Of a stretch of DNA of 64,000 bases, positions 5,620 through 33,698 are shown piece after piece. Made by a program: the position numbers and the translations under genes. The stretch is from contig NZ_CP036246.2 of NCBI RefSeq assembly GCF_004299785.2, forward strand, positions 1,240,001 through 1,304,000, in the 5' to 3' direction. The stretch comes from Arcobacter porcinus. GTDB lineage: Bacteria > Campylobacterota > Campylobacteria > Campylobacterales > Arcobacteraceae. The notes under the pieces are model-generated. The model was given only the letters and a program-made list of their open reading frames with translations. It had not been told where the DNA came from and did not search any database. Positions within the stretch are counted from its first letter, which is position 1, and every line of letters starts with the position of its first letter.

Positions 5620-5667
5620 TTGGCGACCCCAGCATGATTCGAACATGCGTCATCAAGAGGAAATCTT
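5620..5667 (-). other. attL: tRNA-Glu 3' fragment, left boundary of the 37-kb element
   Basis: A 48-bp sequence identical to 42669-42716, which includes the 3' end of the intact tRNA-Glu gene (T-arm, 3' acceptor and CCA). Beyond base 5667 the two copies diverge and the 5' half of the tRNA is missing here. It lies 117 bp before the earliest start of the neighbouring integrase. This is the standard footprint of a tyrosine integrase using a tRNA 3' end. Confidence 0.9.
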
Positions 5668-5804
5668 TTTGTCTTAATAATTTATTTATTTACATTTTAT
5701 AGTAAATACCCTATTTTATAGGCTATTTAAGTTTTAATATATTAATATAACTCTTATATATTCACATATAACTACACTATATTTTGACACCTAAAAGGAT
5801 ACCA

Positions 5805-6887
5805 TTGGCTATACCAAAAACTACAAAAACTATTTATCCAGGGATAGGATATTACCATGATAACTTTAAAGGAAAAGTATTTGTTGCAACTTTTACAATA
5901 AATGGTAAGAAATATAGAAAAATTATTGGTTATGAAAATGATGAGTTTAAAACAAATGCAAAAATTGCATTTTTAAAAAAAGAAGAACTTAAAAGCGATA
6001 TTTTAAATAACAACTATATAAAAAAAGATTTAACATTTAAAGAATTATTTAGTATTTATTTAAAACATTTAGAAGATTCTAAAGCTGTAGCAAGTAGAAC
6101 TATTTTAGCAAAGAAAAGTAATTATAATGCTCATTTTAAAATTCCATTTGATAATTTTTCAGTAAATAGCATTCAAGTTTTTCAGATTCAAAATCTTGTT
6201 AATAGTTTATTAAAAACAAAAGCTCCTAAAACTGTTGATAATTTATTAGCTGATTTATCTGCAATTTTTAAATATGCAATGAAAAATAAGCTAATTACAA
6301 ATAATCCAGTTTTATTAGTAGATAAACCAAAATATGACAATGGAAGAGAATTTCCTTTAAATATAGAAGAATCAAAAAGATTATTTAGAACTATTATAAA
6401 TTTCAAAGAACCTCTATATAAAGATATATTTACTTTTTTACTTCATGGAAGAAGAAAAGATGAAGTTCTAAGTCTAACTTGGGATATGATTGATTTAGAA
6501 AAAAGAGTTTATTACATTGGATTTGAAATTAACAAAGCTAAGAAAAATATGAGCTATGAAATTACAGATGAATTATATGAAATATTAGTAAATATTGAAG
6601 ATAAAAATGGCTATGTTTTTAAATCTCTTGTTACAGGAGATAAAGTTAAAAACCTAAGATGGGCTTGGAAAAGAATACTTGAAGCTTCTGAAATCACCAA
6701 ACATGTAAGAATACATGATTTAAGACACTTAATTGGTGAGATATCATTAAATGAAACAGATAATAGCATGGAAGTAGTTGCTGCTATTCTAGGGCATAGT
6801 TCTACTCGCCCTACTCGTAGATATGCAAAAGTTCAACAAAAGGTTGCAGCTCAAGGATTAAAAAAAGTTTTTGATACCTTGAAGTAA
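5805..6887 (+). CDS. Tyrosine-type integrase of the 37-kb element
   Basis: Integrase with the full catalytic set: Arg in LLHGRRKDEVLSL, HDLRH (H-x-x-R-H), LGHSS and Tyr in TRRYAKV. There is no ATG start. In-frame TTG codons occur at 5784 and 5805; the latter is preferred because AAAAGGA sits five bases upstream, giving 360 aa. It is adjacent to the tRNA-Glu fragment at 5620-5667, so it should excise and integrate the element ending at 42716. Its last roughly 45 bp recur at 8270 and, degenerately, at 10774. A TATAAT-like box follows the stop codon. Confidence 0.9.
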   Translation: MAIPKTTKTIYPGIGYYHDNFKGKVFVATFTINGKKYRKIIGYENDEFKTNAKIAFLKKEELKSDILNNNYIKKDLTFKELFSIYLKHLEDSKAVASRTILAKKSNYNAHFKIPFDNFSVNSIQVFQIQNLVNSLLKTKAPKTVDNLLADLSAIFKYAMKNKLITNNPVLLVDKPKYDNGREFPLNIEESKRLFRTIINFKEPLYKDIFTFLLHGRRKDEVLSLTWDMIDLEKRVYYIGFEINKAKKNMSYEITDELYEILVNIEDKNGYVFKSLVTGDKVKNLRWAWKRILEASEITKHVRIHDLRHLIGEISLNETDNSMEVVAAILGHSSTRPTRRYAKVQQKVAAQGLKKVFDTLK

Positions 6888-6963
6888 AAATTGATATATT
6901 GCAATATTAACAATTTTATATTATAATGTAATATTGAATATTACAAATGTGAAGGAGTCTAAT

Positions 6964-7922: not shown

Positions 7923-8288
7923 ATGTTTAATCTATTTAAAATTGACTTCAGTAATATATCAATAAACTTATTTAATAAAAAAGTTTTAGGTTACAAACTA
8001 ATTTACAAAGATTTTGCAATTTATAAAAATAACGAAATTATTGATAAGAAATTAAATTTAAGAAATCACTCTCCTTGTGGTTTATCTTGGGGATATTCTG
8101 GTTCAGGTCCTTTACAAGCTGCTCTTGCAATATTATATGATTTTACAAAGGATGAAGTTTTTTCTTTGAATAATTATAATGATTTTTCAAATGATATAAT
8201 TAGTTCTTTACCTCAAAAAAACTGTATTCTTAAATTTTCTGACATTCAACATTGGATTGATATTAGAAAGTTGCAGCTCAAGGGTTAA
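7923..8288 (+). CDS. DUF6166-like protein of unknown function
   Basis: A 121-aa protein whose centre, HSPCGLSWGYSGSGPLQAALAIL, matches the conserved core I associate with the DUF6166 family (H-S-P-x-G-x-x-W-G-Y-x-G-S-G-P-x-Q-x-A-x-A). It is often found on mobile DNA, function unknown. The final codons run into a copy of the integrase 3' tail (8270-8316), so the last few residues are probably not ancestral. AAGGTT precedes the ATG. Family assignment is from recall of the motif. Confidence 0.6.
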   Translation: MFNLFKIDFSNISINLFNKKVLGYKLIYKDFAIYKNNEIIDKKLNLRNHSPCGLSWGYSGSGPLQAALAILYDFTKDEVFSLNNYNDFSNDIISSLPQKNCILKFSDIQHWIDIRKLQLKG

Positions 8289-8353
8289 AAAAAGTTTTTG
8301 ATACTTTGAAGTAAATTTTTATATTTTAATATTATTTGTTTTATATTATAAGA
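8270..8353 (+). repeat. Second copy of the integrase 3' tail
   Basis: From GTTGCAGCTCAAG at 8270 the sequence follows the last 45 bp of the integrase gene (6843-6888) with few changes, including GTTTTTGATAC and GAAGTAAA. It then resembles the A/T-rich stretch after the integrase stop, including a TTTTATATTATAA promoter-like box. A more diverged third copy starts near 10774. Confidence 0.8.
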
Positions 8354-10868: not shown

Positions 10869-11581
10869 ATGTATATACTAAATAAAAATTTAGATAAATT
10901 GATTGCTTTATAAAAAGTAAAAATAAGAGCAGAAAGAATAGCTTTAGAGTTAACTCAAGAAGAGTTTGCTGATTTTGTTGAAATAAAGTATGCAACTTAT
11001 AAAACTTTTGAGCAAAGTGGAAAAATATCTTTTGAGAATTATCTGAAAATATTAATTAAACTAAATAAAGATGATCAATTTTTAAAGTTTTTAAATAGTT
11101 TTGAGTTTAATGAAGAAAAACAAAGAACTAGTAGTAAAAAAGTAAATGATAAGAATATAGAAGATAACTTTGTAAAACTGATTATTGAAGCTTCACAAAA
11201 ACATATTGTCTTAGATAAAAAGATTTTTGGAGAAGAGTTGTTTTATAGTATAGAGAATGGACATATTTATGAAATACTAAATTTTATAAATATTGTTTTA
11301 TCTGCTTGGAATGATAAAAGATTAATGCTTCTTATTAAATATTTTGGAGAAGAGAGAATAAAAACTCATATTCTTAATCAAAAAGATATAAAGTTATTAA
11401 AATCATTTAATGCTCATTTAGAGTATATAAGGAAAATATACAAGCAAAAGATCTATTTTATGAAAAAAGCAATGACGAAGGAATAAATACTTTAGTTAAA
11501 AATCCAAAACCATATGATTGGTATAGAAATGAAATTGAAAAATATATTCATAAAGTTTTATTAGATGAGATTTATAAATAA
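10869..11581 (+). pseudogene. Decayed XRE-type helix-turn-helix gene
   Basis: Reading from the ATG at 10869, an in-frame TAA follows after 14 codons (MYILNKNLDKLIAL*). The frame then continues open with a clear XRE helix-turn-helix (RAERIALELTQEEFADFVE) to a stop at 11486. A one-base shift near 11445-11455 restores a further open stretch ending VLLDEIYK at 11581, with sensible composition. One nonsense and one frameshift together suggest a dead regulator or antitoxin gene. Sequence errors could produce the same picture. Confidence 0.65.
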
Positions 11582-11629
11582 TAAATATGCAATATATGCT
11601 TATTAATTAAAATTAATATATAATGAAAT

Positions 11630-13102
11630 ATGAATTTTATTATTATGAAAGAGCTTCCCATAGAAGAAAAAGAAAAAATTGCTTTAAAGATGTTAAGGCA
11701 TTATTATTTAAATGATCATCGTCCATTTTGTGTGGCTTATAGTGGTGGAAAAGATAGTAGTGTTTTAGTTTATTTAACTATAAAAATGCTTGAAAATTTA
11801 ATTAAAGAAAATAAGATATTAAATAAAGAGATATTAATAATAAATTCAAATACTTTAGCAGAACTTCCACCTGTTCTAAAACATCTTGAAAATTCATTAG
11901 TAAAAATACAAGACTATTCAGATCTATATAAATTACCTATAAAAGTAAAAGAAGTAAAACCTGAAATTAAAAATACACTAAATGTTCAACTTCTTGGAGT
12001 TGGTATGCCTCCACCATCTAATCAATTAAGATGGTGTACTGATAAATTAAAAGTATTTCCAATAGATAAAGAAATAAAAGAAAATTTTCCAAATGGAGAA
12101 TTTATTTCAGTTATTGGCACTAGAAGAGATGAAAGCTTTTCAAGAGAAGCAAGAATAATAAAAAAAACAGTTAAAGATACAGATCTAAAATTGAATGATA
12201 GGTATAAAAATGCAAGTAATCTAATGCCTATTGAATTTTGGAGTACAAAAGATGTATGGGAATATCTATTTAAACAATCAAATAATCTTATGGATATAGA
12301 CTTCTTATGGAAAATATATAGTGATGCTAGTGGAAAAGATACAAAAGAGTGTACTTTCGTTGGTGCTGGTGGTAAACATATAGAAGAAGGTAAGATTGGC
12401 TGTGGTGTTTCTCGTTTTGGTTGTTGGCAATGTTACATGGTGAGGGATCAAGATAAGAGTCTTGATGGTCTTATGAAAAGTGGTTATAAAGATATAAATC
12501 TATATAAAGAATATAGAGATTGGTTCTGGGATAAAACTCAACAAGGTTGGGAAAAAACAAGAGATGTATATAGTCATAGACATCAAGGTCAAGATTTTTA
12601 TGATAAAGGTGATGAAACAAATCCTAAATATGGAATTACCATGCCAAAAGGTCTTACACTAAAAATAAGAAAAGAAGCCTTTTCAAGACTTTTATCGCTA
12701 CAATTTAAATTAAATGAACCAATTATAACAGAAGAAGAAATTAAACTTATTCAAGGAAGATGGATTTCAGAAGGAGATCTATCACTTACAGCATTCAGAA
12801 TAGCAAGAATATATGGTTATAAATTCAATAGTTATTCTCTATCAATAAATCAAAGAAAAAATATAAGATTAGCTAAACAATATTATAAAGATATTCTAAA
12901 TAAAAAAGAAATAAAGAAAGAATTTGATATAGATACTTTAAAAAGATTTGCTATTCAAAATATTTTAAATCCTGAAAAAGTAAAATATAAATTTTTTCCA
13001 TCAAAACAAGAAGAAAAATATATTAGAAAAGAATGGAAAATTAATAAAAAAAGTAATATGCATATCTCTTTTATAAATTTAAAAGATTTAATTAATTATT
13101 AG
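11630..13102 (+). CDS. DndC-like PP-loop / PAPS-reductase-family protein
   Basis: A 490-aa adenine-nucleotide alpha-hydrolase with the PP-loop SGGKDSS (38-44), RWCTDKLK (135-141) and GTRRDES (163-169). A cysteine cluster (C241, C258, C265, C268 within GCGVSRFGCWQC) resembles the Fe-S site of DndC, the sulfur-transfer protein of DNA phosphorothioation. No dndB, dndD, dndE or cysteine desulfurase is nearby, so this is a stand-alone homologue. Its 3' end overlaps the converging rdrB by 11 bp. It may be an independent defence gene or an accessory to RADAR. Function beyond ATP/sulfur chemistry is unknown. Start may be at 11630 or 11645. Confidence 0.8.
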   Translation: MNFIIMKELPIEEKEKIALKMLRHYYLNDHRPFCVAYSGGKDSSVLVYLTIKMLENLIKENKILNKEILIINSNTLAELPPVLKHLENSLVKIQDYSDLYKLPIKVKEVKPEIKNTLNVQLLGVGMPPPSNQLRWCTDKLKVFPIDKEIKENFPNGEFISVIGTRRDESFSREARIIKKTVKDTDLKLNDRYKNASNLMPIEFWSTKDVWEYLFKQSNNLMDIDFLWKIYSDASGKDTKECTFVGAGGKHIEEGKIGCGVSRFGCWQCYMVRDQDKSLDGLMKSGYKDINLYKEYRDWFWDKTQQGWEKTRDVYSHRHQGQDFYDKGDETNPKYGITMPKGLTLKIRKEAFSRLLSLQFKLNEPIITEEEIKLIQGRWISEGDLSLTAFRIARIYGYKFNSYSLSINQRKNIRLAKQYYKDILNKKEIKKEFDIDTLKRFAIQNILNPEKVKYKFFPSKQEEKYIRKEWKINKKSNMHISFINLKDLINY

Positions 13103-15362
13103 AAAAATAGTAATTCTCACCATTCTTGATCATATTCTTAATAATACTTTTCCTATCTAGATTTGTTTTTTCTAAAAGATTATATAATATAAAATATTCT
13201 AAATATAAATTATTATTAAATATACCTGGATCATCTGATGCAAGTATAATATTTGGAGCATTTGGATTTTGTAACCATTGCAGGATATGATGATCTTTAA
13301 ACTTATTATAAAAACTAATTCTAGTATTACTTGTAATCATTGTTTCTATTGCTATGTCTTTTTCTTTTAATAAAGATAAAATTTTATTTTGTATAAAAAT
13401 TATAATATCGTCTGATATACAATTTAGATCTACTGTAATAAGTTTATTATATTTATAATAGCTATGTATATTATGATATTTATCAAAAATCTCTAATTCA
13501 TTTTTAGTTAATTGTTTACAAGCTTCTTTTCTAGTTAACCATTTATGCTCAAAAAACTTTTTATAACTTTTACGACTAAACTTTTTAGAATATACATCCT
13601 CACTAGTTTGTTTAAACGCTTTTAATAAATTTTTAATTTCAATACAATATCTTTTTTCCTCTTTTATCATTTCTATTATAAAAAATAAATTATCTAAATA
13701 TTCACCTTCCTTCATTATAATAGTATTATTTAATTTTTTCTTCCAGATTTTTGGGTTAAGTCCCAAAGCTGTAGCATGACCTATCCTATCCTTTGAGTTC
13801 ATATCCAGAAACACTACTGCTTCATAAATATAACGGATCCCAGAAACAATATGCACAAAATCTTCACCTGCATGAAAAGTCATATTTATATGTTTATTAA
13901 ATCTCTTTTTTGTTTCTTCTCTTATGTATCTAAAACTTGATGCAAAAGCTTCTGGTCGTGAATAGAGTTCATTACCAGCTGCATCAATAGCATTTAAAAA
14001 GTCAAACTTTTTGAAACTAGGATTATTTAATGATAAATACTTTGGTTTTGACAATGATAACAATCCCATTATAGAAACTACTCTTTTATTTAACTCTGAT
14101 TTAGTTTTAGAGTCTCTAATATAAATATATTTAGGATTCTTTTGTTCCCTATGCTTTATAAAATGAGTAGTTACTGAAATTTTTGGAATTTCCAATAATT
14201 CTTTTAAATCATTTTTATAGTTTTTATATTTATAATGATCATTTACTATATTAGAATATAACTTTACTGTTTTGTACGTTGTATTTTTAGGTGCAAATCT
14301 AAGTTCTAGATGTTTCAATAAATTTGTTTTTTCAACACCCTCTAATTGTTTATATCTATCTATAAAACCTTTATCTTCATATTGATCTCTCAATTTACTA
14401 TCTGTAATTCTTTGGAACTGAGAAAAACCATATTGGCTCAATTGCTGTACAAATAACTTATTAAATAATGACTGTGCTAAAATATAATAATGGAGTAATT
14501 TACTATAAATATCTTTTCTTACATCAAAATCTGCTATGGTATTAAAAATTAAATTATAAAATCTTACTTCTCTATAAATAATATTTTTATTATTGATTTT
14601 TTGTTGTCTTTTCTTTGCATCTATCTTTATCTGTAAGTGCTTATCAAAGATAATCGTTGAAGATAGATACTTTTCCCATTCTTTATAATCATTTGGATTA
14701 AAATCAACTTCATAAAGAATATATTCAAAAATATATTTTGATTTTTTCAAAATATCAATAAAATCTTTAATATTATCTATCCCATTTTGCTTAAAAAGAA
14801 TTGCATTACCTTTAAATGAATCTTTTAAAGTTAAATATGCTTGGTCAAGATTATCCAAAAAATAATGCCAATTATAAATAGTTTCAGATGTACCATTGAT
14901 ATGCAAATGAGTTTCTATCATTTTTGATTTAGTTAAGGCTTCTAGTTCAATATCCTTAGGTATTGGTAATGATGAATAAAAGAAATTTGTTTGTTTGGAG
15001 TTTTCTAACGGATAACAGTTAAAAATGATAGGTGGTACTAATGTTAAGATATTATTCCAATTAAGATATAATTCTTTTTTGATATATCCTTCATTATCAA
15101 AATATTTTTTCTTTATTCGTAGTACACATTTATTTATATAATATGAGAAATCTTTTTTTCCGCATTCAAAAAATTCTTCTATTAAGTTTTCATGAATCTG
15201 ATCAGGTAAATCATACCTTAACTCTCTTTGAGTTAAAAATACATTTTCTTTGATTAATTTTAGATTACTAAAAGATAATTGTTTATATCTATCTAGCAGT
15301 CGCTTTGAACTAAAAAAAGCTAATGGCGTTAATATATCCAGATCAATTAGTTTATAAATCAT
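13092..15362 (-). CDS. rdrB: RADAR adenosine deaminase subunit RdrB
   Basis: A 756-aa divergent adenosine deaminase with the full metal-dependent set: HLH (152-154), HAGED (497-501), IGHA (527-530) and ASDDPG (708-713), matching the zinc ligands, catalytic Glu and DD pair of the family. Large insertions make it about twice the size of housekeeping deaminases. It overlaps the upstream ATPase gene by 11 bp. An AAA+-type ATPase plus a large adenosine deaminase is the signature of RADAR, an anti-phage system that deaminates adenosine nucleotides or RNA during infection. Assignment rests on motifs, size and pairing. Confidence 0.85.
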   Translation of the reverse strand: MIYKLIDLDILTPLAFFSSKRLLDRYKQLSFSNLKLIKENVFLTQRELRYDLPDQIHENLIEEFFECGKKDFSYYINKCVLRIKKKYFDNEGYIKKELYLNWNNILTLVPPIIFNCYPLENSKQTNFFYSSLPIPKDIELEALTKSKMIETHLHINGTSETIYNWHYFLDNLDQAYLTLKDSFKGNAILFKQNGIDNIKDFIDILKKSKYIFEYILYEVDFNPNDYKEWEKYLSSTIIFDKHLQIKIDAKKRQQKINNKNIIYREVRFYNLIFNTIADFDVRKDIYSKLLHYYILAQSLFNKLFVQQLSQYGFSQFQRITDSKLRDQYEDKGFIDRYKQLEGVEKTNLLKHLELRFAPKNTTYKTVKLYSNIVNDHYKYKNYKNDLKELLEIPKISVTTHFIKHREQKNPKYIYIRDSKTKSELNKRVVSIMGLLSLSKPKYLSLNNPSFKKFDFLNAIDAAGNELYSRPEAFASSFRYIREETKKRFNKHINMTFHAGEDFVHIVSGIRYIYEAVVFLDMNSKDRIGHATALGLNPKIWKKKLNNTIIMKEGEYLDNLFFIIEMIKEEKRYCIEIKNLLKAFKQTSEDVYSKKFSRKSYKKFFEHKWLTRKEACKQLTKNELEIFDKYHNIHSYYKYNKLITVDLNCISDDIIIFIQNKILSLLKEKDIAIETMITSNTRISFYNKFKDHHILQWLQNPNAPNIILASDDPGIFNNNLYLEYFILYNLLEKTNLDRKSIIKNMIKNGENYYFSNN

Positions 15363-17964
15363 CAGCTTCTATACTATGTTGAATATTTTCTAAAAAACGA
15401 TCTAATATTTCTTCTCGTTCAGATGTAATTCTTGTATTCTCTTTTTTTATTTTATTCCAAAAATCATTTCGACTTTTTATCTTTCCACTTTGAACTTCAG
15501 AAATAGCATTTTCTATAATATTTAGATCTTCAGGTTTTTCTATCTTTCTTATTTTATTTAAATCACTTGTATTGAGATAGTTTTTCTCAATTATAATACT
15601 TGCATTTATGCTATCATTATTTATATTTTCTTCATCTTCAACTATATCTTCTTTTTGATTTTCAGTATTAATAATACCAAGTGTTCCAAATGAAGTATGA
15701 ATTCTATTTTTATTATCTTGTCCAATCCAATATATTTCTTTAGGTATGACAAATTTTGAATCTTGTAAAAAACAATATAATACTGGACATAGATACATAT
15801 ACCTAAAAAAATCCAATTCTTTATAATCATCATAAAAATTTTTAACATAATCATTACCAAAAGCTTTTTGAAGATTTTTATTTAAATATGTAGGACTCAA
15901 TATGCTTCCATATGGATTTGAATCATTTTTATTATATATAAGTTCAGTTACCAATAAATTAAAAAAAAGTGTTATTTGAGCAGTAATAAAATCTTTTAAA
16001 TGAATAAACTTCTTATTTTGTAAATTAGATTCATGATAGTTAAGAAAGCTATCCCATATTCTATTTATTTGGAAAATTGAGAAAACTTCAACATAATCTT
16101 TAAGCTTATGCCATTCTAACAAACTCTTATAAAGAGAGTTCTTGATAATCTCATCCCTATCATCTCTAAATAAATGATCATCTCCTTTAAAAGAGTAATA
16201 TTCTTCAAATATTGATAACAAATAAGTTTTAGCATCTTCATAGTCTTTCTGTAGAAACTCATGCAAAAAAGTAAAAATGTTTATTATACTTACATTACTT
16301 TGCTCTGAATGTGCTATTTTACCAGATCTAGATAATAAAATATTTAAAAGAAATTTTTCATCTAATTTAGCATTTCTTTGGAATGTATCAATACCTATAA
16401 AACTTTGTTTTTTAGCATAACGAGTGAATGCATAAGTTGCTCTAAATCCAAGTAGTAAACTTTTTTTATTAGTTTGATTATTATTTTCATCAGCAAGTAA
16501 ACTAATTTGGTCTTGTATTGTAATTGGAGTATTGTATTTCAACCTACTTAAAAGAGTTTTTTTATCATCTTGATTTTTTACATCTTTTCCTAAAATATTT
16601 AAATATGTGAACCTTGTAAGCCATTCAAAAAATGTATTTATTCTAGTATCAATTGTCTTACTCAAATGTAAATTAATTACCATTAAAAGTAAATTAATAT
16701 CTTTACTACTTAAATTCATAGGAAACTGACTTAATTTCTCAAAAGAAAACTGTTCATCAGAGAGTAAATATAGTTTTTTTGCCATTTCTTGAATTACAAT
16801 ATCTGTAGATAAATATTCATAGTCTAGATGTGTAAAATTAAACCTTGCAGTGTTAGTAATAAATACATTGCTAATATCGTTTATAAGTTCTTCTGTATCC
16901 TCTTTATTTATAGAGTAAGCATAAAATATTTTCATATTTGTTCTAATAGGAAGTTGTTTGATAAGATTAGATACTTCTTCTTGTTGTAGTTTATTTTCGA
17001 AATTAAATAATATTTTACTTATATATTGGTAAATCAATTTTATAGGTGTTTTATTCTTAGAATCTTTAACAAATATTTCTTCAGTTTTTTTAGTTAACTG
17101 ATAAAAATTTTCTAAATATATACGATATTCTGGCTTTAATACTTTTATTAAGTACTGTTCTTCTAAATCATTAACCAAATTTACTTTATCATGCCATTCA
17201 TTTTCAGGAAGTATTCTTCTATCAAAATTTTCCCACTGTTTCATTCGCACAAGCGATGAATATAGTTCCCAATCACCTGAAACAAATAATTGTAGTTTGC
17301 ATGAAGTCAAATATTTTCTTATAGTCTCAAGAACCATCCAACCTTTATCAATATTTGTATCAATATCATCAAAAACTAATATAAACATCTTCTTATTTTC
17401 TTTTTTTTCCTTAGATAATAAAGATAAACTTTGACATATAAATTTATTTAAATTTTCTTCAAGTTTAAGACCAGAATTTGCATGATCTAAACCCTTTTCA
17501 AGTATTAAAGCCCCGTCATCAAAAAGATCACTTTTAATTATATCACTTCCAATACCATCAAGAAGCTTCAATCCATCTCCAAGCTCGACTAAAGTTTGTC
17601 TCCATTCATCTGTTGCCTGATCCTTTACTTCATCAGTTATTAAAGATATTATAGAAACTAATATATTTTGTTTTGTCTCAAAAAGTGTTGGGTCTATTAT
17701 TCTTAAAAATATAAGTTCATCTTCATATGTTTTCAAAATTGTTTTTAAACTTAAAAGCAAACTTGTCTTTCCACTTCCCCTTTCTCCAAGTACAGTTATA
17801 GTATCATGTTTTCTGTTACTACAATCTCCAGTTTTAATAAGCCTATTTTCAACTAACTTCTTTATTTTTTCTATTGCTCTTTTTTGTAATAGGTTATTAA
17901 CTTCGAAACTATTATTAGCATCTAAAGATTCTTCAATTTTAATTATGATTTCTTCTTTTTCCAT
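15352..17964 (-). CDS. rdrA: RADAR ATPase subunit RdrA
   Basis: An approximately 870-aa P-loop ATPase with Walker A GERGSGKTS (62-70) and Walker B MFILVFDDID (195-204), followed by a long helical region without a named domain. It is the first gene of a two-gene operon with the deaminase. In RADAR this protein forms rings that bind the deaminase complex. The ATG at 17964 is preferred over 17970 because AGGGA lies seven bases before it. The accessory membrane protein found in some RADAR loci is not visible here. The N-terminal ATPase could be mistaken for a KAP or STAND NTPase if it stood alone. Confidence 0.83.
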   Translation of the reverse strand: MEKEEIIIKIEESLDANNSFEVNNLLQKRAIEKIKKLVENRLIKTGDCSNRKHDTITVLGERGSGKTSLLLSLKTILKTYEDELIFLRIIDPTLFETKQNILVSIISLITDEVKDQATDEWRQTLVELGDGLKLLDGIGSDIIKSDLFDDGALILEKGLDHANSGLKLEENLNKFICQSLSLLSKEKKENKKMFILVFDDIDTNIDKGWMVLETIRKYLTSCKLQLFVSGDWELYSSLVRMKQWENFDRRILPENEWHDKVNLVNDLEEQYLIKVLKPEYRIYLENFYQLTKKTEEIFVKDSKNKTPIKLIYQYISKILFNFENKLQQEEVSNLIKQLPIRTNMKIFYAYSINKEDTEELINDISNVFITNTARFNFTHLDYEYLSTDIVIQEMAKKLYLLSDEQFSFEKLSQFPMNLSSKDINLLLMVINLHLSKTIDTRINTFFEWLTRFTYLNILGKDVKNQDDKKTLLSRLKYNTPITIQDQISLLADENNNQTNKKSLLLGFRATYAFTRYAKKQSFIGIDTFQRNAKLDEKFLLNILLSRSGKIAHSEQSNVSIINIFTFLHEFLQKDYEDAKTYLLSIFEEYYSFKGDDHLFRDDRDEIIKNSLYKSLLEWHKLKDYVEVFSIFQINRIWDSFLNYHESNLQNKKFIHLKDFITAQITLFFNLLVTELIYNKNDSNPYGSILSPTYLNKNLQKAFGNDYVKNFYDDYKELDFFRYMYLCPVLYCFLQDSKFVIPKEIYWIGQDNKNRIHTSFGTLGIINTENQKEDIVEDEENINNDSINASIIIEKNYLNTSDLNKIRKIEKPEDLNIIENAISEVQSGKIKSRNDFWNKIKKENTRITSEREEILDRFLENIQHSIEADDL

Positions 17965-17989
17965 CTTCATTCCCTAGTTACTTAAGTAA

Positions 17990-18250: not shown

Positions 18251-18388
18251 GTATAAATTTTTTATACCTCCCCATATATTTTATTTATTTTACCCAGTAT
18301 AAAATTTTTATACCAGCTAATATAATTTATTTATTTTGACTAGTATAAATTTTTTATACCACCCAATATAAAATTTTTATACTTCTTT
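18251..18388 (+). repeat. Six-unit 23-bp tandem array with alternating palindromes
   Basis: Units start at 18251, 18274, 18297, 18320, 18343 and 18366, exactly 23 bp apart. Units 1, 3 and 5 are palindromes GTATAAA-NTT-TTTATAC, and unit 6 is the same with one change. Units 2 and 4 resemble each other (ATATA-TTATTTATTTT), giving a 46-bp higher-order period. The array lies 60 bp before the SprT-like gene. It looks like iterons or a cooperative operator array rather than CRISPR, as the units have no unique spacers. Confidence 0.8.
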
Positions 18389-18447: not shown

Positions 18448-19224
18448 ATGCAAAAGAATAAATCTACAACTTTAGAATATTATGAGTATTTTCAAGAGAT
18501 ATATAATATTTTTAATAAAGAGCTTTTTTCAAATGAACTTCCTAATTGTATTATTACTATAACTAGACAAAAAAGAGTTATGGGATATTTTAGTCCAAAT
18601 AGATGGATTAATAATAAAGGTAAACAAAACCATGAATTAGCATTAAATCCTTCTTATTTCTCAAGCTCAAATTTCATAGAAATATTTCAAACAATAGTTC
18701 ATGAAATGGTTCATCTTTGGCAATATGAATTTGGTACTCCTTCACAAAGAAGTTATCACAATAAAGAGTGGGCTGACAAAATGGAGAGTTTAGGATTAGT
18801 TCCTAGTTCAACTGGAGCTCCAGGTGGTAAAAAAACAGGTCAAAATATGAATGATTATCCACAAAAAGGTGGAATATTTGAAAAAGTATGTATTGAAATA
18901 TTTAAACAAGGACTATTTTTAAAATGGTTTGATAGGTATTCAAATAAATCTACTTTTATTATAAATGATGAAGAGCTTGATGAGGAAGATATAAAAGAGA
19001 TGATTGATACAAATAATGAAGAAGAGATATTAACATCTTTATATACACCTATTGGAACTATTGTAAAAGATACTTTGCATATTGAAGAGATAGCTTTAGA
19101 AGAGAATAGAAATAAGAGTAAATATTGTTGTGAATGTGGTTGTAATGTTTGGGGTAAAAAGAATTTAGATATTACTTGCAATTTTTGTGGTAATGAATTT
19201 GTATATGTAGAAAACATTAATTAG
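18448..19224 (+). CDS. SprT-like zinc metalloprotease
   Basis: A 258-aa protein with the metal-binding HExxH motif in IVHEMVHLWQ (around residue 90) and a C-terminal zinc ribbon with CCECGC and CNFCG pairs. The SprT/Spartan fold degrades proteins crosslinked to DNA, and plasmid-borne copies are common in Campylobacterota mobile DNA. AAAGGAAATGA precedes the ATG. It is the first gene after the 23-bp repeat array and faces away from RADAR, so it may head the plasmid-like gene block. Confidence 0.82.
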   Translation: MQKNKSTTLEYYEYFQEIYNIFNKELFSNELPNCIITITRQKRVMGYFSPNRWINNKGKQNHELALNPSYFSSSNFIEIFQTIVHEMVHLWQYEFGTPSQRSYHNKEWADKMESLGLVPSSTGAPGGKKTGQNMNDYPQKGGIFEKVCIEIFKQGLFLKWFDRYSNKSTFIINDEELDEEDIKEMIDTNNEEEILTSLYTPIGTIVKDTLHIEEIALEENRNKSKYCCECGCNVWGKKNLDITCNFCGNEFVYVENIN

Positions 19225-20487: not shown

Positions 20488-20652
20488 ATGAGTAATGAAA
20501 TAAAAAATATTAAATTTCATTTTGATGTAGATAAAAATAAGTATGTTTTAAAAATTGGAGATAAGATTTTTGAATTTTCAAGAGAAGAATCAATTAGCTT
20601 ACATAATCATTTAAATAGAGTTTTAAAAGCAACTCCCATTTTATTTAATTAG
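20488..20652 (+). CDS. Hypothetical 54-aa protein
   Basis: A short ORF preceded by AAGGAGAAAAG, nine bp after the preceding gene. It is charged with a central beta strand. Its TAG stop coincides with the left boundary of the first IS110 copy, so the insertion left the coding region complete. Function unknown. Confidence 0.55.
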   Translation: MSNEIKNIKFHFDVDKNKYVLKIGDKIFEFSREESISLHNHLNRVLKATPILFN

Positions 20653-20927
20653 CCTTTTTATAAAGAATAACTTAAAATGAAGAGAAAATTAAAAAAGGCA
20701 ATATTTTATTAACAATATATTTTTAAAGAACATTTGCAAGTAAATATTTCTTGCTGATGTTTGATTTTTGAAGTACTATTTTTAATGCAATTATCTAGAA
20801 TTTTGCAAATAGTATTTTGATAATCAAACAGTAATGTTTGGTTAAACAATTTAGTAAAGTGATAGCTTTTTTTAATGCTATCTTTTAGATTTAAGTACTA
20901 ACTTGTGATCTTTTTACAATTTACTGT

Positions 20928-22157
20928 TTATGACTTAGAAAATACACGAGATGGATCATATGGAGTGTTGTATCTAAATATAGAGTAAATTATGGTTGCA
21001 AGTTTTCTAGCAACAGCAATAATTCCCTCCTGTTTGGATTTACCTTGAGACTTTTTTGTATCATAATATTGTTTTAGTTCTTTGTTGTGTAATAAACAAC
21101 TAACACTTGCCATATATAAAGCATGTTTAGCTAAAGAAGAACCTCTTTTGCTTAAATGACCTGTAGATTTGGAATTACCTGAGCTATTTTCTGTTGGAAA
21201 TAATCCAAGATAACCAATAAATTTAATAGGTGTTTTAAATCTTGATAGATCTCCACATTCACTAATAACTGCAGCAATAGTTTTAGATGAAACTCCAGGA
21301 ATAGTTTTTAAGTTCTCAATCAATGAATTAGTTGGAACATCTTTTTCCTCTTTAATACCATTTTTTTCAAGAAGTGCTAATATCTCTTCTTCTAATATAG
21401 ATAGTTCTTCTTGATATATTTTAAGAAGTCTAATAGAACTTTTAATAGCAATAGCTCTTGCATCTTTGGCTTTACCTGAATAAATAGAGTTTTTTGCTAA
21501 CTCTAAAACCTCTATAGCCTTTTGGTTATTAAAACTATTTCCTTGAATATGTCTAAAAATTTTAAGTATCCTGTCAACACTACTATGTTTATAGTGGTGT
21601 GCAGTTGGATATTTATCTAAAAGTGCAAGCCCTGTGATGCTAAATATATCAATAAAATTTTCAAGTTCTGGAAATGTAACTGTTACTTGAGTAAGTATTC
21701 TCTTCTTTACTTCTTTCATGTCTGATTGTATAGAAGCACGATTACGATATAAAGTTCTTAAACTCTGATATTCGTCATCAGTTACATAACCTGAACTATA
21801 TTTACCATCTTTTAAAAATAAAGCTATGATCCAAGAATCTATGTTGTCGTTTTTTACTTTCTTCATTGTGTGTTGTTCTCTATATCTAGTTGTTTGAAAT
21901 GGATTTAATAGTTTAACATTAAACCCATGAGAATTTAAAAACTCCCAAAGGTTTTCACCATAAATACCAGTTGCTTCAAGACCAATTATAAAATCATTTG
22001 TATTTGATGAAATAGTTTCAAGTTTAGTAATAAACTTTGAAAATCCATCAATACAGTTTGTAACTCTTATAGGTTTTTGTGTAACTTTTACTTCATTCTC
22101 ATCAATGATAGTAACAACATGAAAGCTTTTAGCAATATCAATTCCAACATAATACAT
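20928..22157 (-). CDS. IS110-family DEDD/serine transposase
   Basis: A 409-aa recombinase. The N-terminal RuvC-like domain starts YYVGIDIAKSFHVV with further acidic residues in LEATGIYGE and KNDNIDSW (DEDD set). The C-terminal Transposase_20 domain contains TIPGVSSKTIAAVISECGDLSRF and the candidate serine nucleophile region ENSSGNSKSTGHLSKRGSS. These enzymes use an element-encoded bridge RNA to choose the target. GAGG precedes the ATG. Confidence 0.93.
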   Translation of the reverse strand: MYYVGIDIAKSFHVVTIIDENEVKVTQKPIRVTNCIDGFSKFITKLETISSNTNDFIIGLEATGIYGENLWEFLNSHGFNVKLLNPFQTTRYREQHTMKKVKNDNIDSWIIALFLKDGKYSSGYVTDDEYQSLRTLYRNRASIQSDMKEVKKRILTQVTVTFPELENFIDIFSITGLALLDKYPTAHHYKHSSVDRILKIFRHIQGNSFNNQKAIEVLELAKNSIYSGKAKDARAIAIKSSIRLLKIYQEELSILEEEILALLEKNGIKEEKDVPTNSLIENLKTIPGVSSKTIAAVISECGDLSRFKTPIKFIGYLGLFPTENSSGNSKSTGHLSKRGSSLAKHALYMASVSCLLHNKELKQYYDTKKSQGKSKQEGIIAVARKLATIIYSIFRYNTPYDPSRVFSKS

Positions 22158-22182
22158 TTTTTTATACCTCGTTTATAATAAT

Positions 22183-22486
22183 CTTTAGTTGCCTAGCCTA
22201 AGCTAGATTCACAGCCTCGTTAATCTATATGTAGTAAGTGCTATACAGCTACCTCCACAGCTTTTAATAAATGATTAACAACTAAAGATATCAACAGGCT
22301 TATATAATGTAGTTTGCTAGAATAAATATAAATTCAATTCCATCATTGCTACAAGGAAAAAAATGTTGTTATATCTAAAGTCATAGACTGTAAAAAGTAA
22401 AAGATTTGAAGTTAGTACTTCAATCTTAAAAGAATATATTTTTTAGCTAAAAGCTAGGTTATATATTCATAAATTTATTATACGAG
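22183..22486 (-). ncRNA. Candidate IS110 bridge RNA region, copy A
   Basis: Non-coding end upstream of the transposase, the location of bridge RNA in the IS110 subgroup. It is rich in long-range complementarity: CTTTAGTTG (22183-22191) pairs with CAACTAAAG (22279-22287), CTAGC-CTAA-GCTAG lies just inside, and ACTAAAGATATCAACA matches an inverted ACTTTAGATATAACAACA further out. RNA ends and binding loops cannot be set from sequence alone. The downstream end (20650-20927) is the alternative location. Confidence 0.4.
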
Positions 22487-22495
22487 GAAAATAAT

Positions 22496-23137
22496 ATGAA
22501 ATTAATTACATTAGCAAATTTAAGAAGTGGTGGTAAAAGTTCTATTGCAAGACTTTTAGCAGAGAAGTTAAATTCAGCAATTTTGAATTTTGATAAAAAA
22601 AGAGATAGTGAATCATATAATGCTATCTCTACAATTAATATTCCAGAAGATAAAACACTTGAGAGAAGAGAAGATTGTTTGATTTTAAAAGATAAAACTG
22701 CAGAACAGTCAATAAAAACAAAATCTGATTATTTGATTTGTGATTTAGGTGGATATTTTGATGAGAGATTACTTGATCTAAAATCTGATTTTTATATCAT
22801 TCCATCTTTTGATGATTATGAGAGTATTAGTGAAAGTATGAGAACAGCTCATCTTATTTTAAAAAGTAATATTAAAGCTAAAATAATATTTGTTTTAAAT
22901 GGTGCATTTATTACAGATAAAATAGTAAGAGAAGAAAAGATAAAAGAGTTTAATGAACATATAGAAGTAAATGGGTTTATTAGATTCCCTCTTATTTATC
23001 TTCCAAAAACTAATTTAATGAGAAAACTAGTTGATGAAGCTGCTAAACAAAAAGAGTTAAAAAATAAGTTTGAGCAAGAGATTAAATATGTAAATATAGA
23101 TAAGTTTTTAGATGAACTTATCTTTAGATTTGAATAG
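22496..23137 (+). CDS. ParA/MinD-like ATPase with atypical Walker A
   Basis: A 213-aa protein with the ParA-superfamily fold: a start like ITLANLRSGGKSSIARLLAEKL, then NFDKKRDSES, YLICDLGGYFDERLL (Walker B region), and VNGFIRFPL. The P-loop reads RSGGKSS rather than KGGVGKT, so the signature lysine at the first position is missing. It probably serves plasmid-style partition or positioning. IS110 copies flank it on both sides, sitting exactly between its ribosome site and the preceding gene, and at its TAG stop. A ParB-like partner is not evident. Confidence 0.75.
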   Translation: MKLITLANLRSGGKSSIARLLAEKLNSAILNFDKKRDSESYNAISTINIPEDKTLERREDCLILKDKTAEQSIKTKSDYLICDLGGYFDERLLDLKSDFYIIPSFDDYESISESMRTAHLILKSNIKAKIIFVLNGAFITDKIVREEKIKEFNEHIEVNGFIRFPLIYLPKTNLMRKLVDEAAKQKELKNKFEQEIKYVNIDKFLDELIFRFE

Positions 23138-23412
23138 CCTTTTTATAAAGAATAACTTAAAATGAAGAGAAAATTAAAAAAGGCAATATTTTATTAACAA
23201 TATATTTTTAAAGAACATTTGCAAGTAAATATTTCTTGCTGATGTTTGATTTTTGAAGTACTATTTTTAATGCAATTATCTAGAATTTTGCAAATAGTAT
23301 TTTGATAATCAAACAGTAATGTTTGGTTAAACAATTTAGTAAAGTGATAGCTTTTTTTAATGCTATCTTTTAGATTTAAGTACTAACTTGTGATCTTTTT
23401 ACAATTTACTGT

Positions 23413-24642
23413 TTATGACTTAGAAAATACACGAGATGGATCATATGGAGTGTTGTATCTAAATATAGAGTAAATTATGGTTGCAAGTTTTCTAGCAACA
23501 GCAATAATTCCCTCCTGTTTGGATTTACCTTGAGACTTTTTTGTATCATAATATTGTTTTAGTTCTTTGTTGTGTAATAAACAACTAACACTTGCCATAT
23601 ATAAAGCATGTTTAGCTAAAGAAGAACCTCTTTTGCTTAAATGACCTGTAGATTTGGAATTACCTGAGCTATTTTCTGTTGGAAATAATCCAAGATAACC
23701 AATAAATTTAATAGGTGTTTTAAATCTTGATAGATCTCCACATTCACTAATAACTGCAGCAATAGTTTTAGATGAAACTCCAGGAATAGTTTTTAAGTTC
23801 TCAATCAATGAATTAGTTGGAACATCTTTTTCCTCTTTAATACCATTTTTTTCAAGAAGTGCTAATATCTCTTCTTCTAATATAGATAGTTCTTCTTGAT
23901 ATATTTTAAGAAGTCTAATAGAACTTTTAATAGCAATAGCTCTTGCATCTTTGGCTTTACCTGAATAAATAGAGTTTTTTGCTAACTCTAAAACCTCTAT
24001 AGCCTTTTGGTTATTAAAACTATTTCCTTGAATATGTCTAAAAATTTTAAGTATCCTGTCAACACTACTATGTTTATAGTGGTGTGCAGTTGGATATTTA
24101 TCTAAAAGTGCAAGCCCTGTGATGCTAAATATATCAATAAAATTTTCAAGTTCTGGAAATGTAACTGTTACTTGAGTAAGTATTCTCTTCTTTACTTCTT
24201 TCATGTCTGATTGTATAGAAGCACGATTACGATATAAAGTTCTTAAACTCTGATATTCGTCATCAGTTACATAACCTGAACTATATTTACCATCTTTTAA
24301 AAATAAAGCTATGATCCAAGAATCTATGTTGTCGTTTTTTACTTTCTTCATTGTGTGTTGTTCTCTATATCTAGTTGTTTGAAATGGATTTAATAGTTTA
24401 ACATTAAACCCATGAGAATTTAAAAACTCCCAAAGGTTTTCACCATAAATACCAGTTGCTTCAAGACCAATTATAAAATCATTTGTATTTGATGAAATAG
24501 TTTCAAGTTTAGTAATAAACTTTGAAAATCCATCAATACAGTTTGTAACTCTTATAGGTTTTTGTGTAACTTTTACTTCATTCTCATCAATGATAGTAAC
24601 AACATGAAAGCTTTTAGCAATATCAATTCCAACATAATACAT
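23413..24642 (-). CDS. IS110-family transposase, second copy
   Basis: Protein identical over all 409 residues to the copy at 20928-22157, with the same RuvC-like DEDD start (YYVGIDIAK) and Transposase_20 segment. Both copies appear intact and potentially active. Confidence 0.93.
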   Translation of the reverse strand: MYYVGIDIAKSFHVVTIIDENEVKVTQKPIRVTNCIDGFSKFITKLETISSNTNDFIIGLEATGIYGENLWEFLNSHGFNVKLLNPFQTTRYREQHTMKKVKNDNIDSWIIALFLKDGKYSSGYVTDDEYQSLRTLYRNRASIQSDMKEVKKRILTQVTVTFPELENFIDIFSITGLALLDKYPTAHHYKHSSVDRILKIFRHIQGNSFNNQKAIEVLELAKNSIYSGKAKDARAIAIKSSIRLLKIYQEELSILEEEILALLEKNGIKEEKDVPTNSLIENLKTIPGVSSKTIAAVISECGDLSRFKTPIKFIGYLGLFPTENSSGNSKSTGHLSKRGSSLAKHALYMASVSCLLHNKELKQYYDTKKSQGKSKQEGIIAVARKLATIIYSIFRYNTPYDPSRVFSKS

Positions 24643-30238: not shown

Positions 30239-31549
30239 GGTAGTGTTCAATATTCTGTGTCATCATCAGATAAGTCCTAAAATTCTATCATAAATTTAAA
30301 CTATCATCAAGCCGTCCTTCAAAGTGGATGGCTAGTTGAGACAAAGTTAAACTCCAATTTCTAATTGGCATTGTCCATTTTTCTTGAGCATTTTTTATAC
30401 CCATAAATAGTAGTTTTAGTAAGCTATCATCATTTGGAAAAGCCCCCTTAGTCTTAGTTAAAGTTCTAAATTGTCTATGTACTGATTCAATAATATTTGT
30501 AGTATAAATTACTCTTCTTATATCTTCAGGATATTGGAAATAAACTGTTAAATTTTCCCATTTATTTCTCCAGGATTGAAATACTATAGGGTATTTTTTA
30601 CCCCATTTTTCTTCAAGTTTATCAAGTTCATATAATGCTTCATCTTTTGTAAAAGCTTGATATACAGATTTTAACTCTTGTGCAAATTGTTTTTGGTTTA
30701 TAGATCCAACATATTTAATTGAATTCCTAATTTGATGAACTATACAAAGTTGTACTTCGGTATTTGGAAATACAGAATTTATAGCTTCTGGAAATCCTTT
30801 TAAACCATCAACAGAAGCAATAAGAATATCTTTAACACCTCTATTTTGTAAATCAGTTAAAACTTGTAACCAGAACTTTGCTCCTTCACTTTCATTCAAG
30901 TAAAGTCCTAATACCTCTTTTTTACCATCAACTCTAACTCCTAAAACTGTATAAAAAGCTTTAGCGATATATTTCCCATCTTCTTTTACTTTATAATGAA
31001 TTGCATCAAGAAACACAAATGGATATACTGATTCTAGAGGTCTTGTTTTCCAATCATTAAGCATTGGTATTATTTTATCTGTTACAGCACTTATTGTAGC
31101 TTTTGAGAAGCCTACACAATAAAAATCCTCTATATGTTTTGCTATTTGTGAATAGCTATTACCTAGTGCAAACAAAGATAATATTTTATCTTCAATTTCA
31201 CTTGTCATGGTTGTTTGATTTTTCTTTACAATTTCTGGTTCAAAGTTACCATTTCTATCTCTTGGAACATCTAGTTCGAATGTTCCATGATCACTTTTCA
31301 TAGTCTTTGAGCTATATCCATTTTTTCTATTATTACTCAAATCTTGAGCAAGATGTGAATCTATCTCAGCTGCAAGTGCAGCTTCTGTTAATTGTTTGAT
31401 TAAAGAGCCTAGAGCACCATTTGCTCCACCGATACTTTTACCAGCTTTTATATCTTTAGCAAATTGCTCTACATCTATTTCTATTTTCATCTTTGTGTCC
31501 TTTGGTATTTTTTATTTTACCTAATTGACACAAAATTATGAACGGTCCC
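30239..31549 (-). mobile_element. IS256-family insertion sequence inside virB6
   Basis: A 1311-bp element with related ends (GGTAGTGTTCA...TTCTGTGTCA on the left, and GGGACCGTTCA...TTTTGTGTCA as the reverse complement of the right). It is flanked by a perfect 8-bp target duplication, ATCAAGCT at 30231-30238 and 31550-31557, the size expected for IS256. Confidence 0.93.
30288..31490 (-). CDS. IS256-family (mutator-type) transposase
   Basis: A 400-aa transposase with the family hallmarks: AEIDSHLAQD near the N-terminus, PRDRNGNFEP, the first catalytic Asp in FVFLDAIHYKV, the second in IASVDGLKGFPEAI followed by QLCIVHQIRNSIKYV, and the Glu in TTNIIESVHRQFR. The gene is complete. Confidence 0.95.
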   Translation of the reverse strand: MKIEIDVEQFAKDIKAGKSIGGANGALGSLIKQLTEAALAAEIDSHLAQDLSNNRKNGYSSKTMKSDHGTFELDVPRDRNGNFEPEIVKKNQTTMTSEIEDKILSLFALGNSYSQIAKHIEDFYCVGFSKATISAVTDKIIPMLNDWKTRPLESVYPFVFLDAIHYKVKEDGKYIAKAFYTVLGVRVDGKKEVLGLYLNESEGAKFWLQVLTDLQNRGVKDILIASVDGLKGFPEAINSVFPNTEVQLCIVHQIRNSIKYVGSINQKQFAQELKSVYQAFTKDEALYELDKLEEKWGKKYPIVFQSWRNKWENLTVYFQYPEDIRRVIYTTNIIESVHRQFRTLTKTKGAFPNDDSLLKLLFMGIKNAQEKWTMPIRNWSLTLSQLAIHFEGRLDDSLNL

Positions 31550-32523
31550 ATCAAGCTTTTATAGATACATTTAGACCTTTAGCAATAGTTATTTTAACAC
31601 TATATATTATGATAGTTTCTGTTCTTTTATTAACTGGTAAAACAGAAAAATCAAAAGAAATTTTTATTACAGTCTTATTGTCTAGTTTTATATCTACTAT
31701 TGTTTTTTCTTATGGTGTATATAAAGAATGGATATTAGATACTATTTTGTATCAAAGCTTTAAAATTCAAGGTTTTTTCTTAACTAATGATGGTAGCTTA
31801 CCATCGCAAGTTTTTATGGGAATAGATAAAACATTTGAATTGTTTTTTGGCAAAATGAATGAATTATGGAGTAAAACTTCTATATTTAGAGCTGATGGAA
31901 CTCTTACAATGATAGTTATAATTGTATTAAGTCTTATTTTTGGTATTTTATATCTAGTATATGCAGTTCTTGTTATTTTTTCTACATTTGCAATTTTTGT
32001 ATTTTTTGTTATTGGTGGAATTCCACTTTATTTTGCAATTATGCCACAAACTAGATTTATATTTTGGGCTTGGTTAAGAGCTGTTTTAAATTATGCTTTA
32101 ATTCCTATATTTGCTGCTATTGTTATGGGAATAAGTATTAAATTCTTAAATGCTGCAATTGATGATTTATTTGCTATGGACATAAATAAAAATGGAGTTT
32201 TAAATGTAGCTGTTGGAAATGCTATGTTTATAGGATGTTTAGCTATTTTCTTCCATTTAAAAGCTCCAGAATTCGCAGCTGCTTTAACTGGTGGTCAACC
32301 ATCAGGAATAGGTGGATTTTTTACTACTGTTGCTGGTTTAGGTGCTAGTACATATGCAGTAGGAAAATTTGGAACTTCAAAGGCTTGGGGTACAGCAAAA
32401 GGACTATACAACTCTCCAAAAAATGCAATAACTGCTTACAATGAAGTCAAAAATGTAAGTTCAAGTATTGCAGAAACTGCGATAAGAGCAAAAAATGCTT
32501 TTTCTAAATCAAAAGGACTTTAA

Positions 32524-32883
32524 ATGAAAAAAACAAATGATTTTAAAGTGAAAGTTTTAAATCTTCCTAAAAGATATAAAGCATATAGAAATAAATTAAA
32601 TCAAATTGCTCATCATGTTTATTTAGATTCTCTTTTATCAAAAGGCTCTTCTTTTATAGAAGAGAGTAAAGAAGATCTAAAAACATCTAAAACTATAACT
32701 CAAAAAATAAATATATCTGAGGTTACAGAAACATATTATGAGTATTTTAATAGCTCAAATGAGCTATCTTTTAGACAAATGATAAATGCTCTATTTTATA
32801 TCTATGAAAAAAAATCTTTATCTTTTATGAGAGATGATAAAGACTTCTTAGAAGATCAATTAAAAATGTATAACAAAAAATAA
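32524..32883 (+). CDS. Hypothetical conjugation-operon protein
   Basis: A 119-aa charged soluble protein starting immediately after the virB6 stop. No signal peptide or known domain. Its position between virB6 and the lipoprotein, in the same orientation, makes a transfer-related role likely but unproven. Confidence 0.6.
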   Translation: MKKTNDFKVKVLNLPKRYKAYRNKLNQIAHHVYLDSLLSKGSSFIEESKEDLKTSKTITQKINISEVTETYYEYFNSSNELSFRQMINALFYIYEKKSLSFMRDDKDFLEDQLKMYNKK

Positions 32884-32901
32884 AAAACAAAGGAAAAAAA
32901 T

Positions 32902-33697: not shown

Positions 33698-33698
33698 A

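Follow-up and report, generated by a model that had tools for sequence, protein, structure and literature searches.

The stretch of DNA analysed here, which we call the window, comprises 64,000 nucleotides of the genome of Arcobacter porcinus (assembly GCF_004299785.2, contig NZ_CP036246.2, positions 1,240,001 to 1,304,000). It contains two adjacent genes that resemble rdrA and rdrB of the anti-phage system RADAR, and a third gene, convergent with rdrB, for a DndC-like protein of the PP-loop/PAPS-reductase family. An initial inspection of the sequence, referred to below as the original prediction, described an ATPase of about 870 amino acids (aa) whose gene overlaps that of a 756-aa adenosine deaminase by 11 bp, read the pair as a complete RADAR system, and placed it on a tRNA-integrated, conjugative-type element; it omitted the DndC-like gene. 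In this text, coordinates are those of the window (Table 1), and the loci and genomes used for comparison carry L and G numbers, respectively.

The RADAR gene pair and its DndC-like neighbour

The rdrA-like gene is located directly upstream of the rdrB-like gene on the same strand, which is the tandem order of RADAR, and the two genes overlap by 11 bp (15352-15362). The rdrA-like reading frame contains a second in-frame ATG at 17964, from which a protein of 870 aa would be made. The sequence AGGGA lies immediately 5' of the first ATG (17970) and six bases 5' of the second, and therefore it is plausible that 17964 is the true start. All the motifs named in the original prediction are present, in the ATPase as GERGSGKTS and MFILVFDDID, and in the deaminase as ETHLHINGT, FHAGED, RIGHAT and SDDP. 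A scan for promoters and terminators returned 48 promoter-like sites, against 63.6 in shuffled sequences, and no terminator.

Residue conservation was assessed on alignments of chosen sequences, which were also used for structure prediction. In the deaminase, all 31 relatives aligned share H152, H154, H497, E500, H529 and D710, and in the ATPase the residues of Walker A (G62, R64, G65, G67, K68) and of Walker B (D201, D202) are the same in all 27 sequences. The active-site residues of Escherichia coli RdrB, as listed in the structural paper on RADAR (PMC9994260), are H152, H154, H498, H530 and E501; H152, H154, H498, E501 and H530 correspond to H152, H154, H497, E500 and H529 of the window protein.

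Both proteins match RdrA or RdrB models in PADLOC and RdrA or RdrB sequences in the PDB (Table 1). The PDB matches are partial, covering mainly residues 287-746 of the RdrB-like protein and being confined to residues 57-299 or 58-305 of the RdrA-like protein. The original prediction proposed profile searches as a check, and their outcome was divided: the PADLOC profiles recognised both proteins, and the NCBIfam equivalog cut-offs, which are naming thresholds of one curated set and no biochemical definition, were reached by neither the RdrB-like protein (123.7 versus 800 bits) nor the RdrA-like protein (115.2 versus 600 bits). According to PMC9994260, three published RADAR systems are themselves only 22-28% alike in their conserved parts.

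Structure prediction of the single proteins, the other check proposed, gave a clearer answer. The AlphaFold2 model of the RdrB-like protein (pLDDT 86.3, pTM 0.89) aligned with eight solved RdrB chains (8hr7/8fnv) over 824-841 columns (E 1e-30 to 6e-29, query TM-score (TMq) 0.78-0.80), whereas plain adenosine deaminases and Cad1 reached a TMq near 0.3 (0.27-0.32 for Cad1/CARF-ADA); the presence of RdrB-specific insertions is judged from this whole-length match of folds, and not from a one-by-one superposition. The model of the RdrA-like protein (pLDDT 76.8, pTM 0.70) aligned with 19 solved RdrA chains from 8hr7, 8hr8, 8hra, 8hrb, 8fnt and 8fnw over 833-905 columns (best E 9e-23, TMq 0.63-0.69), including the C-terminal lobe typical of RdrA. 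The RdrA of S. suis gave a weaker match (TMq 0.36), and the best fold other than RdrA was that of ORC (E 3e-3, TMq 0.19), with no other fold at E≤1e-3. Two other assignments were rejected. Firstly, Pfam gave only sub-gathering matches to the ATPase (AAA_16, AAA_22, NACHT and others), with no KAP or STAND family at E≤0.1 beyond the sub-threshold NACHT, and the fold is that of RdrA and not of a generic KAP/STAND ATPase. Secondly, a deaminase of the CARF-ADA/Cad1 type is disfavoured by a PADLOC CARF_ADA match of only E 4e-9, together with the low TMq. Because the predicted structures match solved RdrB and RdrA nearly over their whole length, we conclude that, by sequence and model, the pair is a true, complete and divergent RADAR despite its low scores, as the original prediction held. 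Divergent RADAR pairs that score far below the NCBIfam naming cut-offs may go unnamed elsewhere.

The dndC-like gene and rdrB overlap by 11 bp at their 3' ends. Its product scores 213.6 bits with the DndC model TIGR03183, below the cut-off of 290.4 bits. It has the PP-loop SGGKDS at residues 38-43, conserved in seven of seven members of the subfamily described below, and the cysteines C136, C241, C258, C265 and C268, which all 33 homologues share. Those of E. coli B7A DndC, given in PMC12193691, are C146, C262, C273, C280 and C283; the five correspond in order, and the last three of the window protein share the 7 + 3 spacing of C273/C280/C283.

DndC relatives beside RADAR or Menshen

Of 397 Campylobacterota genomes searched for DndC, 42 have a homologue (E≤1e-20). 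Six places, the window included, have at least 63% identity over most of DndC; apart from a broken piece in G244, described below, the remaining matches have 28-38%. These six intact places all flank one of two defence systems. Two flank RADAR, namely the window and a Sulfurimonas metagenome-assembled genome (MAG; G277, locus L029), and the other four (in G027, G240, G187 and G206) flank genes that PADLOC identifies as NsnA, NsnB and NsnC (L096, L097, L098 and L099). We take Nsn to be the PADLOC name of Menshen. In keeping with this, PMC10952713 describes Menshen as DUF262 plus a nuclease. A seventh intact locus, found by means of RdrB in a Sulfuricurvum MAG (L030), brings the totals to three for RADAR and four for Menshen. 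Searches of the open PMC subset, which did not take in the Menshen diversity paper (PMC12065111), turned up no report of a PAPS-reductase/DndC gene associated with RADAR or Menshen.

In L029 and in L030, dndC-like, rdrA and rdrB form a row on one strand; neighbouring genes overlap by 8 and 20 bp in the former and by 20 and 20 bp in the latter, and all six of these genes start with ATG. With either type of partner, the dndC-like gene leads the row (L029 and L030; L097, L098 and L099) or converges on its 3' end (the window; L096).

The NsnA of L097, used as a query, found 25 places in 23 of the 397 genomes, and the four DndC-linked NsnAs were the four best. We also observed that these four have 477-578 aa, and that 18 of the 21 other places have frames of 368-450 aa; the N-terminal extension may be a docking or sensing part. 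A docking domain common to this extension and the RdrA tail was considered and rejected (hhalign probability 0.1%). The possibility of a leftover Menshen fragment in the window was likewise rejected, since tblastn with ten NsnA, NsnB and NsnC proteins of relatives returned no match at E≤0.01.

The ancestry of the RADAR genes was examined with a tree of 42 RdrBs. The 47 distinct RADAR loci are 51 sources minus L016, L017, L018 and L028, which repeat L029, L041, L032 and the window; the tree also omits L053 (a near copy of L052) and the partial L025, L027, L055 and L063. The RdrBs of the window, L029 (77%) and L030 (65%) form a clade (100/100), with the window and L029 together inside it (99/71), and a dndC-like gene is present in all three members. 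Two RADARs of the window's own genus, L020 and L021, are distant from it and belong to a different, well-supported clade. Since the window RdrB clusters with those of Sulfurimonas and Sulfuricurvum and not with these two, horizontal transfer of its RADAR is likely from the tree. The DndC tree (33 rows, omitting a short L075/L103 fragment and matches for which no locus was returned) differs: here the nearest neighbour of the window is L096, a Menshen-linked locus from the same genus (100/100), and L029 and L030 form a separate group (100/99).

The same discrepancy is seen in the DNA. By blastn, positions 11570-13052, on the dndC-like side, are 84.9% identical to L096, with only 70.9% identity to L029 for the dndC-like gene, and positions 13182-17961, on the rdrBA side, are 78.1% identical to L029. 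Synonymous divergence (dS) between the window and L029, rough because values are near or above 1, is 1.52 for DndC, 0.87 for RdrA and 0.74 for RdrB. The ratio of nonsynonymous to synonymous divergence (dN/dS) is 0.15-0.30 over the seven gene pairs compared, which argues that dndC-like, rdrA and rdrB are maintained. Because L096 shares the convergent arrangement of the window, the more likely history, as read from these sequences, is an exchange of effector cassettes, RADAR for Menshen, beside the DndC-like gene, with the switch at the mosaic junction. A history in which homologous recombination replaced the dndC-like gene and left the effector cassette in place is less favoured on account of that same shared arrangement. 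A simple inversion of rdrAB in place is likewise less probable than a cassette exchange, given the DndC tree and the convergent arrangement of L096. On this reading, one effector would have taken the place of another next to a module that stayed the same, leaving a sharp breakpoint in the defence locus, which suggests one constant DndC-like module with exchangeable weapons, RADAR or Menshen.

A proposed role for the DndC-like protein and competing explanations

We propose that the window encodes a divergent, complete RADAR of RdrA and RdrB that works with a third protein, the DndC-like sulfurtransferase, and judging from the sequences we put the probability of this reading at roughly two in three. 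It builds on four things apparent in the sequences: the gene pair itself, the conservation of the partner beside this type of RADAR, the same-strand overlaps in the relatives and the RADAR/Menshen exchange. As the fold and active sites would have it, RdrA would assemble as a ring ATPase on RdrB, and on phage infection RdrB would deaminate ATP and dATP to ITP and dITP, by which the nucleotide pool would be poisoned. This is the activity of RADAR upon infection according to PMC9994260, and the same chemistry is likely here because fold and active sites match those of RADAR. The DndC-like enzyme could take sulfur from a housekeeping cysteine desulfurase; genes of PF00266, the family of cysteine desulfurases, are present in seven of seven genomes. 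Working without DndD and DndE, it would place a chemical mark on DNA, another nucleic acid or a nucleotide, and this mark would signal to the associated effector whether to hold back or to fire. That the DndC-like protein is a stand-alone module for self/non-self recognition, independent of DndD and DndE, whose killing device (RADAR or Menshen) can be exchanged by recombination, is a possible, tentative extension of this reading.

Several observations weigh against a partnership of this kind. First, a DndC homologue is present in only five of the 47 distinct RADAR loci (the window, L029, L030, L031 and L042), for which stretches of 3.7-22.5 kb were examined apart from the 64-kb window, and in none of four plasmid RADAR neighbourhoods, inspected out of seven plasmid records with an RdrB-like protein. 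Because of these counts, the DndC-like partner is no general part of RADAR. Second, the dndC-like gene of the window is on the strand opposite to rdrAB. Third, G244 has a broken DndC fragment (57% over residues 252-400, with an internal stop) whose open part is nearest to the subfamily (50-64%), and the surrounding 19.9 kb contain neither RADAR nor Nsn genes. Fourth, in weak single-sequence alignments, from which the residue numbering was counted, T, D and D stand opposite the E. coli RdrA crown contacts K150, E151 and R162, and the glutamates of the RdrB trimer, E595-E597, lie where the alignment has gaps. As far as these alignments show, the residues are not conserved and the known RdrA/RdrB assembly may differ in the RADAR of the window, or the interface may have co-varied.

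The partners of classical DndC are also missing from the matches. DndD (TIGR03185, E≤0.001) was not found in the window genome (G000), G187, G277 or G422, and in G027, G240 and G206 it scored only 18.3-21.3 bits, versus 83.7-473.9 bits in true dnd genomes; the same search did detect DndD-like genes in G086, G365, G423 and G424. DndE (TIGR03184) was not found in G000, G027, G240, G187 or G422 and scored only 19.6 bits in G206 and 17.5 bits in G277, and an alignment of four local DndE-like proteins found none in these seven genomes. It should be noted that the DndE result is weaker than that for DndD, as neither DndE model covers both types: G086 and G365 have DndE-like genes that escaped TIGR03184, and that of Shewanella escaped the local alignment. 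Because DndD and DndE were not found, a full Dnd system in the window genome was rejected, and a classical DndCDE phosphorothioate mark appears doubtful.

This bears directly on the first alternative, in which the DndC-like protein thiolates the DNA backbone and RdrA reads the mark or its absence, in the manner of SspE or DndI. On the one hand, all five DndC cysteines are kept, and NsnA, the alternative partner, has a GmrSD_N/DUF262 domain, which accompanies phosphorothioate sensing in SspE and DndI according to PMC10952713 and PMC11662687. Other RADARs also stand beside dnd genes. In Shewanella pneumatophori (L042, 1234-13245), DndB, DndC, DndD and DndE are encoded divergently from rdrA-rdrB, with DndD and DndE above their NCBIfam cut-offs. 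In a Gracilibacteria MAG (L031, 170-10285), rdrA-rdrB is followed by an Orf5/HEC-06/SspE-like DUF262 gene and genes of the DndE, DndD/PbeC and DndC types. This wider link between RADAR and dnd is a lead only. On the other hand, the window genome has neither DndD nor DndE among the matches, no phosphorothioate reader was recognised, and no resemblance between the RdrA tail and the NsnA extension could be detected. A phosphorothioate-type mark made by the DndC-like protein is unproven, and we consider this alternative rather unlikely.

Equally improbable in our estimate is a second alternative, in which the DndC-like protein modifies RNA or a nucleotide, for example to a thiolated or adenylated compound, and the product keeps RdrA/RdrB or Menshen inactive or triggers them. 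Adenylation or thiolation of tRNA and small molecules is common among PP-loop enzymes, and such chemistry would suit this role, as does the lack of a recognised DndD/DndE partner. RADAR itself acts on nucleotides, as PMC9994260 reports. Against this, the closest characterised relatives are DNA-modifying DndC proteins, and the substrate is purely conjectural.

A third alternative is that of an ordinary two-gene RADAR, with the DndC-like gene next to it being either a passenger that has nothing to do with the pair or a separate defence gene in the same hot spot. Two genes suffice for RADAR in E. coli (PMC9994260), defence genes cluster, 42 of the 47 RADAR loci are without a DndC homologue in the stretch examined, and the convergent, not co-directional, gene of the window and the G244 fragment with neither partner would fit. 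What makes it unlikely are the rows of three overlapping genes seen in L029 and L030, the presence of the gene in three of three clade members, the split of the six intact subfamily places only between RADAR (two) and Menshen (four), and the use in the window of a DndC lineage other than that of L029 and L030. Finally, a decayed and functionless RADAR remnant, which the scores far below the equivalog cut-offs and the diverged interface residues might suggest, is highly improbable given full-length reading frames, conserved catalytic residues where checked, near-whole-length folds and a dN/dS of 0.15-0.25 for RdrA and RdrB.

Returning to the proposed three-protein RADAR, its significance lies in sensing, as the structural paper speaks of 'an unknown phage signal' (PMC9994260). 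A natural RADAR with a partner of the DNA-modification type, swapped with Menshen, makes the modification state a candidate for the RADAR signal. If this is true, RADAR would be a modification-sensing effector, which would also explain its position beside dnd genes in Shewanella and the Gracilibacterium.

The integrated element and comparison with known systems

The RADAR genes sit on an element of about 37 kb that is integrated at a tRNA-Glu gene and bounded by an exact 48-bp attachment (att) repeat, one copy of which is the 3' part of the tRNA gene, and the integrase adjoins the left end. The integration described in the original prediction is therefore confirmed. Genes of the TrbL/VirB6, VirB8, CagX/VirB9, TrbI/VirB10, VirB11-type ATPase and VirD4-type coupling protein families are present; no VirB4-type or relaxase gene was recognised among the listed open reading frames (ORFs), with no model search aimed at them. 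Because of this, and because a Mutator-type transposase gene immediately precedes the VirB6-type ORF, the present mobility of the element is uncertain.

Table 1. Features of the window
Feature	Position	Strand	Description
att repeat, distal copy	5620-5667		exact 48-bp direct repeat of 42669-42716
Tyrosine integrase of the element	5784-6887	+	Pfam Phage_integrase E 2.5e-17; adjoins left end
DndC-like PP-loop/PAPS-reductase-family sulfurtransferase	11630-13102	+	490 aa; PADLOC DndC E 5e-77
Mosaic junction	13052-13182		blastn: the left side (dndC-like) and the right side (rdrBA) differ in ancestry
rdrB-like adenosine deaminase	13092-15362	-	756 aa; PADLOC RdrB E 6e-26, PDB RdrB E 7e-52
rdrA-like AAA+ ATPase	15352-17970	-	872 aa; PADLOC RdrA E 4e-21, PDB RdrA E 8e-25
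Type IV secretion/conjugation genes	31525-40769	+	six ORFs above Pfam gathering scores
att repeat at 3' part of tRNA-Glu	42669-42716		tRNA-Glu at 42670-42745, - strand

Other features of the element were observed in passing. Between rdrA and a SprT-like gene (18448-19224, + strand), positions 18251-18360 hold three direct repeats spaced by 46 bp, each with the palindrome GTATAAA(N)TTTTTATACC. With up to two mismatches on both strands, this palindrome has seven matches in the window, six of them at 18251-18360, against 0.11 expected, and its exact form occurs in no other locus of the 117 (L028 being the window itself); the repeats are possibly an operator. Two IS110-family transposase genes within 20609-24642 (20928-22157 and 23413-24642) are identical at every base, and each has on its 3' side a stretch of about 300 bp, 94% identical between the copies. 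The 3' end of the integrase gene (6840-6900) is repeated at 8267-8327 (89% over 61 nt), past a segment for an AbiEii-like nucleotidyltransferase, an arrangement that might have come from the insertion of a small unit at the tail of the integrase gene.

The wider surveys gave some further observations. In the Shewanella locus L042, the divergent dndBCDE and rdrA-rdrB genes are followed by a gene for a 231-aa protein without a PADLOC match, by its sequence a probable membrane protein. A Rhizobium plasmid (L108; NZ_CP025015.1, 5048-13765) carries a RADAR-like pair annotated as hypothetical proteins (RdrA E 5e-42, RdrB E 3e-52), followed on the same strand by an adenylosuccinate synthetase gene, so that a purine enzyme adjoins a purine-deaminating system. 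A short RdrA/RdrB pair (770/769 aa; L017/L041) lies, by our reading of the ORFs, within a cluster of polysaccharide or glycosylation type. Scans of IMG/VR and of phages with RdrB gave no match. With the DndC alignment, IMG/VR gave five loci, the best at 35%, and the plasmid scan with DndC (2203 records) had its best listed place at 34.6%; among 321 genomes of the class of G424 there was no match at E≤1e-60, in a search that had no positive control.

How does the system compare with those already described? Like Cad1/CARF-ADA of type III CRISPR, it would have an adenosine-deaminase effector acting on ATP, and it differs in fold, as the structural comparison above indicates. With Dnd (DndBCDE) it shares the PP-loop and all five cysteines of DndC; it differs in that DndD and DndE were not found in the window genome, and in that the DndC-like protein belongs to a subfamily of seven (100/100) apart from the dnd-linked DndCs of L031, L042 and L106. 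The logic of a sulfur-modification module with a separate effector is that of the Ssp and IscS-DndBCDE-DndI systems, whereas here the effector is a nucleotide deaminase and neither SspB/SspC nor DndD/DndE adjoins the dndC-like gene (no genome-wide search for Ssp genes was made). Menshen (NsnA-NsnB-NsnC) is found in the same two arrangements at four loci of the DndC subfamily, and in L096, from the window's own genus, it takes the place that RADAR has in the window. With RADAR of the E. coli and Citrobacter rodentium types, the window shares the tandem rdrA-rdrB genes, near-whole-length folds, deaminase residues and Walker motifs. It differs in the low identity of the structure alignments (RdrA 16-18%, S. 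suis left out; RdrB 21-23%), in scores below the NCBIfam equivalog cut-offs, in an RdrA-like tail that aligns, by eye, only with those of the two other DndC-linked RdrAs (L029 and L030), and in the DndC-like partner gene. We read the window system as a new form of RADAR. The original prediction of a complete, divergent RADAR on an integrated element is right, and what is new is the DndC-like partner, beside which RADAR and Menshen have been exchanged.

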